Source: Nocardioides sp. | GTDB lineage: Bacteria; Actinomycetota; Actinomycetes; Propionibacteriales; Nocardioidaceae | Reading direction: 5' to 3' | Length of the DNA stretch: 64,000 bases | Assembly (NCBI RefSeq): GCF_030149505.1 | Contig: NZ_JASBRN010000053.1 | Coordinates: 62,001 to 126,000, forward strand | Part shown: positions 24,426-44,914 of the stretch, one piece after another | Numbering within the stretch: position 1 is the stretch's first letter | Layout: every line of letters begins with the position of its first letter | Notes under the pieces: model-generated | The model's input: only the letters and a program-made list of their open reading frames with translations | What the model was told of the DNA's origin: nothing | The model's database searches: none | Position numbers and translations under genes: made by a program

Positions 24426-25625
24426 ATGCGGATCGTCGCCGCCCGCCCCGACCCCGGCCTGGTCCGGCTGCCCTGGTCCACGCCGCTGGAGGACTGGGGC
24501 ACCGACGTCGTGGTGCCGCTGCCCCGGGGCCTGTCGCGTCACGTGGTACGGATCGTGCGCCAGGGCGAGCGGGTGTACGCCGTCAAGGAGACGGTCGAGG
24601 AGATCGCGTTCCGGGAGTACCGCACGCTGCGCGACCTCCAGCGGATGGGGCTGCCCGCCGTCGTGCCGCTCGGGGTCGTCACCGGGCGCACCGACGCCGC
24701 CGGCCAGCCGCTGCCGGCGTGCCTGCTCACCGAGCACCTGCGCTTCTCGCTGCCCTACCGCAGCCTGTTCTCCCACGGCGCCACCGCGCAGAACCTGCCC
24801 TCGCTCGTCGACGCCCTGGTGGTGCTGCTGGTGCGGCTGCACCTCGCGGACTTCTACTGGGGCGACGTGTCGTTGTCCAACGTGCTCTTCCGGCGCAGCG
24901 CCGGCGGGTTCGCGGCCTACCTCGTCGACGCCGAGACCGGCGAGCTCAAGGAGCAGCTCTCGCACCGCCTGCGCGAGCACGACGTCACCGTCGGCACCGA
25001 GAACGTCTTCGCCGAGCTGCTCGACCTGCAGGCCAGCAACGCCGTCGCCGGCGAGGTCTCGCCCCACGACGTGGTCGAGATGCTCGTGCGGCGCTACGAC
25101 GAGCTGTGGGCCGAGCTCACCGACCAGGAGGAGTTCTCCACCCACGAGATGTGGCGGATCGAGCAGCGGATCGAGCGGCTCAACGACCTCGGCTTCGACG
25201 TCGAGGAGCTCGACATCGTCACCGACCTCGACGGCGACCGGGTCCGCATCCAGCCCCGGGTCGTCGACCTCGGCCACCACCGCCGCGAGCTGCAGGCCCT
25301 CACCGGGCTCGACGTCGAGGACGCCCAGGCCCGTCGCCTGCTCAACGACATGGCCTCGTTCTCCGCCCACCACGACCTGGGTCGCGAGGACCGCGGCATC
25401 GTCGCCTCGCGCTGGCTCACCGAGATCTACGAGCCGATCACCCGCCTGGTACCCAGCGGCCTGGGCGGGCGTCTGGAGCCCGCCGAGTTCTTCCACGAGG
25501 TGCTGGAGCACCGGTGGTATCTCTCCGAGCGAGCCGGCCACGAGGTCGACATCTTCGAGACCGCCCGCGACTACGTCGACACCGTGCTGGGCTCCAAGCC
25601 GGTCGAGGTCATCCCCACCGACTGA
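24426..25625 (+). CDS. DUF4032 protein with kinase-like N-terminus
   Basis: A 399-residue protein of the actinobacterial DUF4032 type. The first 190 residues resemble a lipopolysaccharide/small-molecule kinase lobe: a Lys in VYAVKETVEEIAFREY, then the catalytic-loop-like FYWGDVSLSNVLF and a metal-site-like AYLVDAETGEL. The rest (EEFSTHEMWRIEQRIERLNDLGF onward) is alpha-helical and characteristic of DUF4032. Phosphotransfer has not been shown for the family as far as I know. It lies directly downstream of the GH13 gene, so a sugar-related role is possible. The stop is followed by the hairpin cluster at 25654-25890. Confidence 0.8.
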   Translation: MRIVAARPDPGLVRLPWSTPLEDWGTDVVVPLPRGLSRHVVRIVRQGERVYAVKETVEEIAFREYRTLRDLQRMGLPAVVPLGVVTGRTDAAGQPLPACLLTEHLRFSLPYRSLFSHGATAQNLPSLVDALVVLLVRLHLADFYWGDVSLSNVLFRRSAGGFAAYLVDAETGELKEQLSHRLREHDVTVGTENVFAELLDLQASNAVAGEVSPHDVVEMLVRRYDELWAELTDQEEFSTHEMWRIEQRIERLNDLGFDVEELDIVTDLDGDRVRIQPRVVDLGHHRRELQALTGLDVEDAQARRLLNDMASFSAHHDLGREDRGIVASRWLTEIYEPITRLVPSGLGGRLEPAEFFHEVLEHRWYLSERAGHEVDIFETARDYVDTVLGSKPVEVIPTD

Positions 25626-25653
25626 GCCCCGGCGGTGCGGGGACGGGCAGGCG

Positions 25654-25682
25654 GGCCGCTCGTGAGGGACGAGCGAGCGGCC
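25654..25682. repeat. hairpin, short relative of the giant-hairpin tip
   Basis: GGCCGCTCG pairs with CGAGCGGCC around TGAGGGACGAG. The loop is identical to that in the element at 43909-44144 and one base off the element at 25704-25890, while the stem differs by compensatory changes. Flanks (GGCGGG before, AGCGACG after) are partly shared too. It lies about 30 bases past the DUF4032 stop. Confidence 0.6.
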
Positions 25683-25703
25683 TCTCCCAGCGACGGACGG
25701 ACC

Positions 25704-25890
25704 GCGCGGCGCCGCGCTCGGCCGGGGGCGCGGCGGGGCGCGGGCCGACGACGGTGCCCCCGGAGGAGCGTGGTTGGGTCTGGCGGCCCTCCTCGTGAGG
25801 AACGAGCGAGGAGGGCTGGTAGCGACGAAGGGGGCCGCCGTCGTCGGTCCGCGCCCCGCGGCGCGTCCCCGGCCGAGCGCGGCGCCGCGC
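25704..25890. repeat. giant hairpin element, copy A
   Basis: A 187-bp near-palindrome between convergent genes. The outermost 22 bases pair perfectly (25704-25725 with 25869-25890), and the arms stay about 90% complementary to a CCCCC/GGGGG closing pair. Inside is a 78-base core (25757-25834): 30 bases starting CCCCCGGAGGAGCG, a tip hairpin (25786-25816, GCCCTCCTCG/CGAGGAGGGC around TGAGGAACGAG), and 19 bases ending GACGAAGGGGG. The core sides are identical to copy B at 43909-44144 while the arms are unrelated. A bidirectional terminator or a structured RNA/DNA element is likely. Confidence 0.75.
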
Positions 25891-25905
25891 ACCCCCGGAA
25901 GCGCC

Positions 25906-26475
25906 CTACGGCTTGCAGACCCGGCAGGCGGTGAGGTGGGCGGCGTTGGCGCCGGCGGGGCGCAGGTCGTCGCGGTGGGCGATCAGCGAACAGTCGCGGC
26001 GGTGCAGCGTGGTGCCGTCACCGGCGACGACGGGCAGCGCGTCGGTGTCGGTCTCCGGGGCGTGGATCGCCGCGGCCCGCGAGGTGACGTCGGCCAGCAC
26101 GAGCAGGGTGTCGGCCAGGCGCTTGGAGGACTCGCGACCGTCGTCGGCGATCCGGGCCAGCCACGCCCCGAAGTAGAGGAACCCGCCCGCGAAGGTCAGG
26201 CCCAGGCCGAGCAGGCCGCCGGAGACCAGGTAGGAGATCTGGTCGTACTCGAAGGGCGTGTTGGCCGCGCCGTACCACCCCAGCACGATGACGACCAGGC
26301 CGAGCGGCAGCAGCACCGCACCGGCCCAGAACAGCACGACCTGGAGCAGCTTGTAGTTGTTGTTGACCACCGGCGCGGCGCCGGAGCCACCGCCCCGGGA
26401 ACCGGCACGCGGCATCGCAGCACCCGCGCCGAGGCGCGAGCCGGAGGCGGGGGTGGAGAGGGTGGTGTCGGTCAT
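25906..26475 (-). CDS. small membrane protein with C-terminal Cys/His motif
   Basis: A 189-residue protein of no recognised family. Residues 1-40 are a Gly/Ala/Arg-rich cytosolic leader. There are two hydrophobic helices (LLQVVLFWAGAVLLPLGLVVIVLG and a second from YLVSGGLLGLGLTFAGGFLYFG). The C-terminal tail has spaced Cys/His residues (LHRRDCSLIAHRDDL ... LTACRVCKP) that resemble a small metal-binding finger as found in other actinobacterial membrane proteins. Located downstream of the transporter cluster on the same strand, 65 bases after it, so possibly part of that transcript. Confidence 0.65.
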   Translation of the reverse strand: MTDTTLSTPASGSRLGAGAAMPRAGSRGGGSGAAPVVNNNYKLLQVVLFWAGAVLLPLGLVVIVLGWYGAANTPFEYDQISYLVSGGLLGLGLTFAGGFLYFGAWLARIADDGRESSKRLADTLLVLADVTSRAAAIHAPETDTDALPVVAGDGTTLHRRDCSLIAHRDDLRPAGANAAHLTACRVCKP

Positions 26476-42601: not shown

Positions 42602-43858
42602 GTGCGTCGCCTCCTCCCCTCCCTCGCGCTGGCCCTGACCCTCTCCCCGCTGGCACCCGTGACCCCGGCGGTCGCCGACACGTCCGCACCGGGTGCCCGC
42701 CGTGCGGCCGAGCATGCGGTTCAGCGTGCGGCCGCGAAGATCCAGACCGACCTGCGCGGCTGGTCCGGCGCGGACCTGGCCTCGGGCCGCACGGCCGGCA
42801 CCGAGCTGCGTCGGGGCCGGCTCTTCCTCGCCGACCCGGTCGGCACCCGCACGCTCGGCGGCACGACGTACGACGTCGGGCGCTGGGTCTCGAGGTGGGC
42901 CCGTCCCGGGTTCGGCTTCACCGAGCTCGTCGCGAGCTGGGAGGCCAAGACCCCGGGTGACTCGTGGGTCGAGGTCGAGGTGCGCGGGCAGGACGCGTCC
43001 GGGCGCCGCAGCTCGTGGGACAGCCTCGGGCGCTGGGCCTACGGCGACAAGCACCTGCGCCGCACGAGCGTCCCCGGCCAGGACGACGACCTCGCCCGCG
43101 TCGCGACCGACACCTGGCGCACCGCCTCCGCGGCCGGCCTGGACCGCTGGCGCGTGCGGGTCAGCCTCATGCGTCGTACCGGCGCCACCACCAAGGCCCC
43201 CAGCCTCGGCCACCTCTCGGCCACCACCTCGCGCCGCCCCGACACCCGCCCGCCGACCTCGAAGCCGGGCGTCGTCGCGCAGGCCGGCGGCGCGGTGCTC
43301 GACGTGCCGCGCTACAGCCAGATGGTCCACACCGGCCACTACCCGCAGTGGGGCGGGGGCGGCGAGGCCTGGTGCTCCCCGACGTCGCTGTCGATGGTGC
43401 TGGCCTTCCACGACGCCCTGCCCCCGGCCCGCGACTACGCCTGGGTCCCCGACGGCCACGGCGCGCCCTGGGTGGACCACGCCGCCCGGATGACCTTCGA
43501 CCACGGGTACGACGGCGCCGGCAACTGGTCGTTCAACGTCGCCTACGCCGCCCGCCTGGTCGGCCGGGCCGAGGTCTCCCGCCTCCCCGACCTGCGCGCC
43601 GTCGAGCGCCTGGTCGCCGACGGCCTCCCGGTCATCATCTCGATCGTCTTCGACGCCGGTGAGCTCAGCGGCGGCCCGCTCACCTCCTCCGACGGCCACC
43701 TGCTGGTCGTGGTCGGCTTCACCGCCGACGGCGACGTCGTGGTCAACGACCCCGCCGCCGACTCCCCCGCCGGCGTACGCCGCACCTACGACCGCGCCCA
43801 GCTCGAGCGGGCCTGGCTGGACGCCTCCACCGGCACCGCCTACGTCCTGCGCCCCTGA
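42602..43858 (+). CDS. secreted C39-like papain-fold peptidase
   Basis: A 418-residue exported protein with a Sec signal ([24 protein letters not shown]). Residues 70-215 are a beta-rich module ([19 protein letters not shown]). Residues 235-418 are a C39_2-type papain fold: LDVPRYSQM, the nucleophile in [17 protein letters not shown] (about residue 258), the His in [10 protein letters not shown] and the Asp/Asn in [10 protein letters not shown]. Usually such enzymes cleave peptides or act as peptidase-like wall proteins. GTG start. The tandem repeats upstream suggest dedicated regulation. Confidence 0.82.
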
Positions 43859-43908
43859 CCCGAGCCCGCCCCGCGTCCAGCCCCGACCACCAGCCACGGA
43901 GGCGGGGG

Positions 43909-44144
43909 TGCGCGGCCGCGGTCGGATGGCCCGGTGCGCGGGGCCGCCGCCGGCTCACCCGGCCTGCGGAGGCGCGGCCGGACGCAGACGCCCCCGGAGG
44001 AGCGTGGTTGGGTCTGGCGGGCTCCTCGTGAGGGACGAGCGAGGAGCCTGGTAGCGACGAAGGGGGCGTCTGCGGGAGGCGGTGCCTCCGCAGGCCCTCA
44101 GGAGGCCGCGGCACCGCGCGGCCCCACCCGACCGCGGTCGCGCA
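43909..44144. repeat. giant hairpin element, copy B
   Basis: A 236-bp imperfect palindrome filling the gap between convergent genes. The outer 17 bases pair with one wobble (43909-43925 with 44128-44144); the arms stay roughly 75-80% complementary to the CCCCC/GGGGG closing pair. The core at 43991-44066 has exactly the same 30-base left side and 19-base right side as copy A. Its tip hairpin is GGCTCCTCG/CGAGGAGCC around TGAGGGACGAG (44020-44048). Arm sequences are unrelated to copy A. No ORF with a ribosome site. Confidence 0.75.
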
Positions 44145-44173
44145 CACCCGACCGACCTACCGACGACCCACCC

Positions 44174-44914
44174 TCAGCAGCCGTAGCCCCCGTCGACGTC
44201 CAGCTTCTGGCCCGACACGAACCCGGCCCGGTCGGAGGCGAGGAAGCAGACCGCTTCGGCCACGTCGTCGGCGCTGCCGAAGCGCCCGAGCGGGATGTTG
44301 CGACGGGTGATCTCGAGGGCCTCGTCGGACAGCTCGCCGGAGCCGATGAGCCGGGCGGCCATCCCGTCGGTGAGCATGCCGGGACCGACGGCGTTGACCC
44401 GGACGCCGTACCTCCCCTCCTCGACCGCCAGCGCCCGCACCATCGCCTCGACGGCGGCCTTGGGCGCCGAGGAGAGCCCGTCGCGCTTGGGGAAGCGGGA
44501 GGTGGCGGCGGTGGTGACGGCGACGACGCAGCCGCGCGACTCGCGCAGGGCCGGGAGCGCGGCGCGCACCACGGTGAAGAAGCCGCCCGCGTCGTCGTGC
44601 AGCTGGGTGGCCATGTCGGCCGCGGAGACCCTCCCGAGGTGGACCATCGGCACGTGCGGGCCGGCGGCGTGCACGAGCGTGTGCAGGGCCCCGTGCTCGG
44701 CCAGCACCGCCGCGACGACCGCGTCGGCCTGCGCGGCCGCGTCGCCGGCCCCCAGGTCGAGCGGGTACGAGGCCACCCCCTCTGCCGGCGTACGACGGTG
44801 GGTGACGACGACCCGTGACCCGCGGGCTGCGAGCAGGGCCGCGACCCGCGCCCCGATGCCCCCGTTGCCGCCCACGACCAGGGCTGCCCCGGGGCGGCCC
44901 GCGAAGTCCTGCAT
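44174..44914 (-). CDS. SDR-fold protein lacking the catalytic tyrosine
   Basis: A 246-residue SDR-fold protein. The cofactor loop is GGNGGIG (residues 15-21); HAAG replaces NNAG, and a TTAATS segment covers the catalytic Ser region. The expected YxxxK reads SSAPK, so the Tyr is replaced by Ser while Lys remains. The C-terminus (GPGMLTDGMAARL, SGQKLDVDGGYGC) is normal. It is either an SDR with a different proton relay or a non-catalytic cofactor-binding protein. Its ATG overlaps the molybdo-enzyme stop (TGATG), so the two are coupled. Confidence 0.8.
   Translation of the reverse strand: MQDFAGRPGAALVVGGNGGIGARVAALLAARGSRVVVTHRRTPAEGVASYPLDLGAGDAAAQADAVVAAVLAEHGALHTLVHAAGPHVPMVHLGRVSAADMATQLHDDAGGFFTVVRAALPALRESRGCVVAVTTAATSRFPKRDGLSSAPKAAVEAMVRALAVEEGRYGVRVNAVGPGMLTDGMAARLIGSGELSDEALEITRRNIPLGRFGSADDVAEAVCFLASDRAGFVSGQKLDVDGGYGC

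Follow-up and report, generated by a model that had tools for sequence, protein, structure and literature searches.

A dispersed intergenic hairpin repeat of Nocardioides with a covarying tip stem, located mostly between convergent genes

The analysed stretch of DNA (the window) comprises 64,000 nucleotides of a Nocardioides sp. contig (NZ_JASBRN010000053.1, positions 62,001 to 126,000) and contains two complete copies of a long hairpin element, each located between convergent genes (Table 1). Common to both elements is the order GCCCCC GGAGGAGC GTGGTTGGGTCTGG CG, tip hairpin, TGGTA GCGACGAA GGGGGC. The arms consist of inverted repeats at 25704-25742/25852-25890 (90%) and 25728-25761/25831-25864 (88%) in element 1 and at 43961-43995/44062-44096 (86%) and 43903-43938/44115-44150 (81%) in element 2. 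The outer arms of the two elements differ from each other, yet each set is largely complementary. Terminal inverted repeats, as looked for in MITEs, are present as the arms of both elements. No terminator-like site with a T-run was found in 25600-25930 and 43850-44190 by a scan covering loops of 3-8, and the letters following the arms contain no T-run either. A promoter of the sigma-70-like type could not be detected in the two element regions. Rfam, searched for a known RNA family, gave no match to the elements at the gathering score or at E<=10.

Table 1. Coordinates of the hairpin elements, their parts and the neighbouring genes in the window.
Feature	Position	Strand	Details
Flanking gene of element 1, 399 aa	24426-25625	+	DUF4032 with weaker Kdo-kinase match (Pfam); 3' end ~80 nt before element 1; codon-usage gene call
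Degenerate core copy ("solo tip")	25634-25697	+	match to covariance model R1 of the family, model positions 18-80
Tip hairpin, copy 1	stem GGCCGCTCG 25654-25662 / CGAGCGGCC 25674-25682	+	loop TGAGGGACGAG 25663-25673; read directly
Complete element 1, arm to arm	25704-25890	+	inverted repeats; fold z -10.3
GGAGGAGC, 5' side of G.A-rich internal helix, element 1	25762-25769	+	standard pairs plus tandem G.A
GTGGTTGGGTCTGG, conserved 5' strand of asymmetric internal loop, element 1	25770-25783	+	
Tip hairpin of element 1	25786-25816	+	10-bp stem, structured 11-nt loop
Tip hairpin, copy 2 (element 1)	stem GCCCTCCTCG 25786-25795 / CGAGGAGGGC 25807-25816	+	loop TGAGGAACGAG; read directly
TGGTA + GCGACGAA, 3' strand of internal loop and G.A-rich helix, element 1	25817-25829	+	
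Gene converging on element 1, 189 aa	25906-26475	-	no Pfam match at E<=0.001; codon-usage gene call
Flanking gene of element 2, 418 aa	42602-43858	+	Peptidase_C39_2 (Pfam); codon-usage gene call
Complete element 2, arm to arm	43903-44150	+	inverted repeats; fold z -9.3
GGAGGAGC + GTGGTTGGGTCTGG of element 2	43996-44017	+	
Tip hairpin of element 2	44020-44048	+	
Tip hairpin, copy 3 (element 2)	stem GGCTCCTCG 44020-44028 / CGAGGAGCC 44040-44048	+	loop TGAGGGACGAG; read directly
TGGTA + GCGACGAA of element 2	44049-44061	+	
Gene converging on element 2, 246 aa	44174-44914	-	short-chain dehydrogenase (Pfam); codon-usage gene call

The initial annotation had described three tip hairpins whose stems differ in step. 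By direct reading, their coordinates, full pairing and matched stem differences proved correct to the base. It had further noted that the first tip stands without the giant arms and might represent the minimal unit. Outer arms are indeed not seen there, but the tip is surrounded by most of a degenerate core, which model R1 matched at 31.9 bits (E=3.4e-4 for the whole window) even though this copy was not used in the model. The G-rich strand and the 3' AGCGACG are still recognisable. We read the copy as a core that has probably decayed beside element 1, and the minimal-unit interpretation was rejected on account of this surrounding match. The solo tip occurs at the orthologous place of the sibling genome (L075), at a distance of 133 bases from the element tip (L203, L075) as in the host. 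For a 51-nt piece holding the lone tip, folding is unexceptional (z -1.8), with 12 of 200 shuffles at least as stable. A search with the 19-base tip pattern allowing up to three mismatches returned 27 places. Tips outside a recognisable core were limited to the solo tip and four three-mismatch matches (L042-L045), and a reversed-pattern control gave about as many as these four (5 matches).

The z values in Table 1 refer to stretches of 276 nt (25630-25905, element 1 with the lone copy) and 266 nt (43895-44160, element 2) compared with dinucleotide shuffles; the 86-nt core of element 1 folds modestly (z -2.2). Model R1, built from 17 cores of the host genome including copies 2 and 3, scores these two with 95.0 and 111.7 bits. 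Among the 17 cores, standard pairs fill 96.4% of the pair cells, and double changes occur at 16 of 26 pairs, amounting to 79 double-change cells compared to 10-19 in six slid-partner controls that keep relatedness. The covariation in a wider alignment on which the initial annotation had made its interpretation depend is thus present, and it was also found in 30 distinct 50-nt cores from several genomes. There the covariation score is 0.503 compared to 0.08-0.17 in the slid controls, and score and double-change cells, as expected of a structured RNA, lie above all shuffles and slides. Two further counts do not exceed the shuffles: there are 14 pair types compared to a shuffled mean of 15.1, and 107 of 500 shuffles have at least as many double-changed pairs as the 8 observed. 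A chance palindrome is ruled out by the fold z-scores, the covariation and the matches to the family model.

Complete copies combine long complementary arms with an asymmetric loop conserved in sequence (GTGGnTGGGnCTGGC / TGGTW), and in the host genome their inner helix is rich in tandem G.A pairs. Read by eye, divergent members have ordinary pairs in place of this helix. Inner-helix pair 22-75 is CG in 12 and GC in 5 of the 17 cores. The tip stem varies in sequence and mostly stays paired, and the variable positions of the cap change in step. The tip loop is therefore not open: among 62 distinct cores, one of them IS-interrupted and with related, non-independent copies counted without control for relatedness, pair 49-59 is TG in 32, CG in 19 and TA in 11, and pair 52-56 is GC in 54 and CG in 8. 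In the same set, position 54, the middle base of a presumed GNA triloop, varies freely (A in 31, G in 27, C in 3 and T in 1). The search pattern, with up to two substitutions allowed, itself imposes part of the loop-letter conservation in these cores. From our reading of the letters, we suggest a cap with sheared G.A pairs and a GNA triloop. Base 74 has at least one Watson-Crick match with base 27 or 32 in 60 of 61 intact cores, a value reached by none of 20000 shuffles (mean 38.2, sd 3.0; relatedness uncontrolled).

The host genome, 4.17 Mb in 88 contigs, gave 27 model matches at E<=1. The contig pairs C41/C77, C6/C86 and C65/C80 each look like one place broken between contigs, and about 24 family places remain, lone tip included. 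One further match beyond these, on C43, has a scrambled core. The host assembly breaks repeatedly inside hairpins, namely at the three pairs above and at C62 and C78, and some of the ends disagree in letters. C65 and C80, for example, are seemingly one place but their letters differ; assembly errors inside the hairpins are likely. The C43 core (L279, G000:C43:44414-46102) is full of changes towards G, with flanks near-identical to the clean copy of the sibling. This is probably a sequencing error in the hairpin and possibly decay. A second short intergenic repeat, approximately TCGAACCRGCGCCGAGTCA, lies beside several elements (right flank of L018, left flanks of L019 and L020).

Within the genus, own genome included, model R1 matches in 15 of 215 genomes and a smaller core model, R2, in 40 of 215 at E<=0.001. 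At least two matches occur in 18 of these 40 genomes, and many of the others have a single weak match; copy numbers from searches over more than 40 genomes are lower bounds owing to stricter filters and limited scored candidates per genome. At class level, matches occur in 6 of 394 genomes; five of these belong to the genus, and the sixth match is borderline (E=8.8e-4). In the bacterial family, 5 of 149 genomes hold the short pattern with at most one mismatch. Model support outside the genus was obtained for one of the five, G059 (L086) of another genus, which reaches 53.9 bits, the same score as its twin, the Nocardioidaceae MAG contig L074. For a further short-pattern match, L083, no model match was obtained; L084 has a twin, L077, that scored 22.7 bits. 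A Jatrophihabitans MAG contig (L059) gave 56.8 bits. These out-of-genus matches rest on MAG contigs, which may be mis-binned. With the model, 27 of the 35 exact-pattern stretches reach E 0.1; those below this level (L050, L051, L052, L057, L062, L069, L077, L081) were taken as chance. Viral contigs gave no match to one exact pattern, and plasmids and phages gave no blastn match with one 136-base query, so that with the searches used a phage or plasmid origin was rejected. Among the genomes searched, the family thus appears nearly confined to Nocardioides. Arrangements vary: three elements stand in tandem, 115 nt apart, in G139 (L166), three form a mixed-orientation cluster in G093 (L187), and G183 has paired elements. 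The first two recall BIME clusters. In titles and abstract openings of the open-licence literature on palindromic repeats and structured RNAs in Nocardioides, actinobacterial REPs, ERIC-type repeats, Streptomyces bidirectional terminators, quasipalindromes and REPs with quadruplexes, no description of this hairpin family is given, and the word Nocardioides is absent from the REP survey RepRanger (PMC12306157).

Genes were called with a home-made program based on codon usage, for which the window served as training set. Both neighbours could be called for 15 own copies, and C33 and C9 gave no row. Ten copies lie between convergent genes, two in "++", two in "--" and one in "-+" context. Compared to the 11 convergent pairs among 54 gene pairs in the window, this placement is enriched (p 1.3e-4). 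Of the 11 convergent gaps in the window, the two with elements are the longest (280 and 315 nt). A pooled context count of 35/61 is indicative only: 20 rows from sibling and other early loci are left out, and the rows from outside the own genome include several negative distances and several elements per gap, with L172 possibly counted on both strands. An element of 3' UTRs read only in sense is not supported, as the own genome shows no sense preference ("++" 2 vs "--" 2). The flanks of the single "-+" copy, C61a (G000:C61:59730-59829, L023), are found on two different sibling contigs (L066, L076), so the copy may stem from an assembly join or from a rearrangement through the repeat. The C62 flank continues one of these two contigs.

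At the place of element 1, both flanks could be aligned in 6 of 11 relatives examined, which have a short gap or other sequence instead of the element. In G246 (L213), an unrelated palindrome (GGTCTCGAGGCTCGTCGCTGGCG...) occupies the orthologous gap, as if the gaps between orthologues of 24426-25625 and 25906-26475 attract hairpins of several families. The element at the C43 place is present in G246 and absent from G139, G225 and G206. No target-site duplication could be established, as the element-less places are too diverged to fix the element ends. At C33 (L207:3100-4617), an IS110-family element coding for a 438-aa transposase (PF01548, PF02371) interrupts the tip loop, and both halves of the hairpin are visible alongside.

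The arms show a strand asymmetry. In 16 own elements, G.T outnumbers A.C by 27 to 6 (strand flips element by element, p 0.003) and purine-purine outnumber pyrimidine-pyrimidine mismatches by 39 to 10 (p 0.001); the scoring treats G.T and A.C alike, and the p values are weakened by shared ancestry of the arms. At other loci (49 elements, many related) the counts are 63 vs 14 and 121 vs 22, respectively. The effect is weak in the arms of the G183 subfamily (G.T 13 vs A.C 8). Because G.T is preferred over A.C on one strand, a single strand seems to fold, be it RNA or single-stranded DNA, and probably RNA. Such an asymmetry is not expected of a double-stranded cruciform.

Comparison with the sibling genome (G256, equated with MAG WLJH01 on the basis of identical model scores and loci that match), in which the flanks are mostly 92-98% identical, allowed the copies to be followed in place. 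Orthologous copies occur at 18 of ~23 full-element places, the compared loci being those with exact-pattern matches or fetched by the model. In 13 ordinary comparisons, changes affect 34 of 1452 paired, 35 of 656 unpaired and 292 of 6635 flank positions (15 comparisons were run and two replaced loci dropped; the replaced C33 and C6a are not in the set). The fewer substitutions at paired than at flank positions, together with the excess of G.T over A.C in the arms, support selection on the structure. Selection had already been claimed in the initial annotation from the matched stem changes; these are real and hold in the wider alignments, but by themselves they do not prove it. One pair at C48b changed on both sides from C-G to G-C in comparison to the sibling. 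Of 32 single-sided changes between orthologues, 13 leave a standard pair in place, 7 result in A.C and 12 in another mismatch, a weak preference for keeping the pair.

In 4 of the 17 own copies compared, stem and inner arms differ from those of the sibling within matching flanks. Another subtype is present at C33, C53b and C6a, and the same subtype with another stem at C13. At C62, the core is identical and the inner arm different. The sibling orthologues of C13 and C61d share one identical 50-nt core that is absent among the host cores and one letter away from the host's own C61d core. In C48c, CTACCAGGCC stands in place of the CTGGCG of the other own A-type copies and is exactly complementary to GGCCTGGTAG within the same copy. 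This copy looks as if it had been corrected from the opposite arm; with no orthologue among the fetched sibling loci, its letters may also be a sequencing error. The replacements in the sibling, its shared core and the C48c complement together indicate that conversion and hairpin-templated correction probably act beside selection.

The same observations can be taken further. According to a largely mutational explanation, which is compatible with the others, the matched changes arise mainly by template switching in the hairpin and by gene conversion between copies, selection contributing little or nothing. Compensatory changes of several bases at once through template switching are documented in the literature (PMC8794818), and C48c, the four replaced copies and the core shared by the sibling orthologues of C13 and C61d all fit. 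As a main cause it nevertheless seems unlikely to us, since it explains neither the excess of G.T over A.C and of purine over pyrimidine mismatches on one strand nor the lower divergence of paired positions compared to flanks. Single-sided steps through G.T exist as well, and the letters of C48c may be a sequencing error. A selfish, non-autonomous mobile repeat is a stronger candidate, though on balance still somewhat unlikely. In such a case a single-stranded hairpin, DNA or RNA, would be recognised and copied by an enzyme, its structure would be selected for mobility, and convergent gaps would be places tolerating insertion without any benefit to the host. The patchy spread over 40 of 215 genus genomes, the clusters and pairs in L166, L187 and G183, the relatives with element-less places and a constraint on one strand without orientation preference to genes are in accordance with mobility. 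Mobile-enzyme searches covered PF01797 and PF00078. The Y1 (HUH) transposase family PF01797 was found in 0 of 20 genomes, with 5 of 14 control genomes positive, so that no RAYT system was found in the genomes searched. RVT_1 is absent from 9 of 12 carriers; with 3 of 12 carriers compared to 3 of 8 non-matching genomes positive there is no association, and an element borne by a reverse transcriptase was rejected. The persistence of copies at most orthologous sibling places and the stronger constraint on paired positions than on flanks also speak against mobility as the explanation.

The conserved fold with its non-canonical modules and the dependence of base 74 on 27 or 32 would suit an independent small or regulatory RNA made from each element. 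This we regard as very improbable, as the two element regions lack a sigma-70-like promoter, several genomes have many copies, even E<=10 gave no Rfam match, and the elements sit at gene ends and not before genes. The same bases allow another proposal, in which the GG runs 25-26, 29-31, 35-36 and 71-72 would form a two-layer G-quadruplex and base 74 a triad with 27 and 32. The conserved loop would then be a quadruplex-duplex junction from which the tip hairpin projects with its GNA cap, and the repeat a mobile protein-recruiting aptamer at convergent gene ends. One GG run is lost in C48c, the one clear exception among the own copies. We consider this proposal improbable; if true, the repeat would be a natural mobile nucleic-acid aptamer bringing one protein to convergent gene ends genome-wide.

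ERIC or IRU sequences of enterobacteria are about 127 bp in size and, similar to the elements described here, dispersed structured intergenic palindromes without coding capacity. Compared by description only, the Nocardioides family differs in its near confinement to this genus among the genomes searched and in loop and cap modules of its own, and no Rfam family matched it. A REP is a simple hairpin of 20-40 nt, whereas the Nocardioides elements measure ~100-250 nt and have a conserved internal loop. Dispersed intergenic palindromes that are often clustered and located between convergent genes characterise REPs and BIMEs, and the hairpin family shows these properties. As with REPs, an IS110-family element has used a copy (C33) as target; IS110 elements are reported to target REPs (PMC1525189), and structured intergenic families including ERIC and PU-BIME are named in PMC2267715. 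The REP/BIME-RAYT system is distinguished by its Y1 transposase, which the 20 genomes searched lack. Gene-end hairpins with double changes and G.U intermediates are reported for intrinsic terminators of Bacillus cereus (PMC5381666). The double changes at gene ends are shared, but the Nocardioides elements have no T-run and their sequence is strongly conserved between unrelated places. The TMECO intrastrand-triplex repeats of E. coli, 23 intergenic motifs (PMC4666352), resemble the family in being intergenic, without strand bias and with a near-identical core. They have another consensus, and the Nocardioides family is built as a hairpin with internal loops and not as a triplex.

Taken together, we tentatively favour a REP/ERIC-like dispersed intergenic repeat that would insulate convergent gene ends by its RNA hairpin, at a confidence that stays short of even. 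When the flanking gene is transcribed, the arms would fold at the RNA level, terminate or protect the transcript and so shield the convergent neighbour. The fixed loop letters might be read by a trans factor, either an RNA-binding or a mobilising protein. The tip stem would be a mere spacer, which would explain why it can change as long as it stays paired, and copies would be further rewritten by conversion and templated correction. Several findings argue against such a gene-end role. There is no sense bias beside same-direction neighbours, which a 3'-end element of one orientation predicts, and no T-run terminator site at either element. The weak pair-keeping between orthologues and the small G.T excess in the G183 subfamily count on the same side. 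The conserved loop letters exceed the needs of a terminator or an RNase barrier, and C61a was called between divergent genes, at a place that may be an assembly join.

With the same element in many places and in sibling genomes, and with a measurable single-strand asymmetry, the repeat offers a natural multi-copy experiment on selection for a fold versus mutational copying in hairpins. Should a factor bind the loop, the family would illustrate how converging transcription is managed in a high-GC actinobacterium at sites without a T-run.
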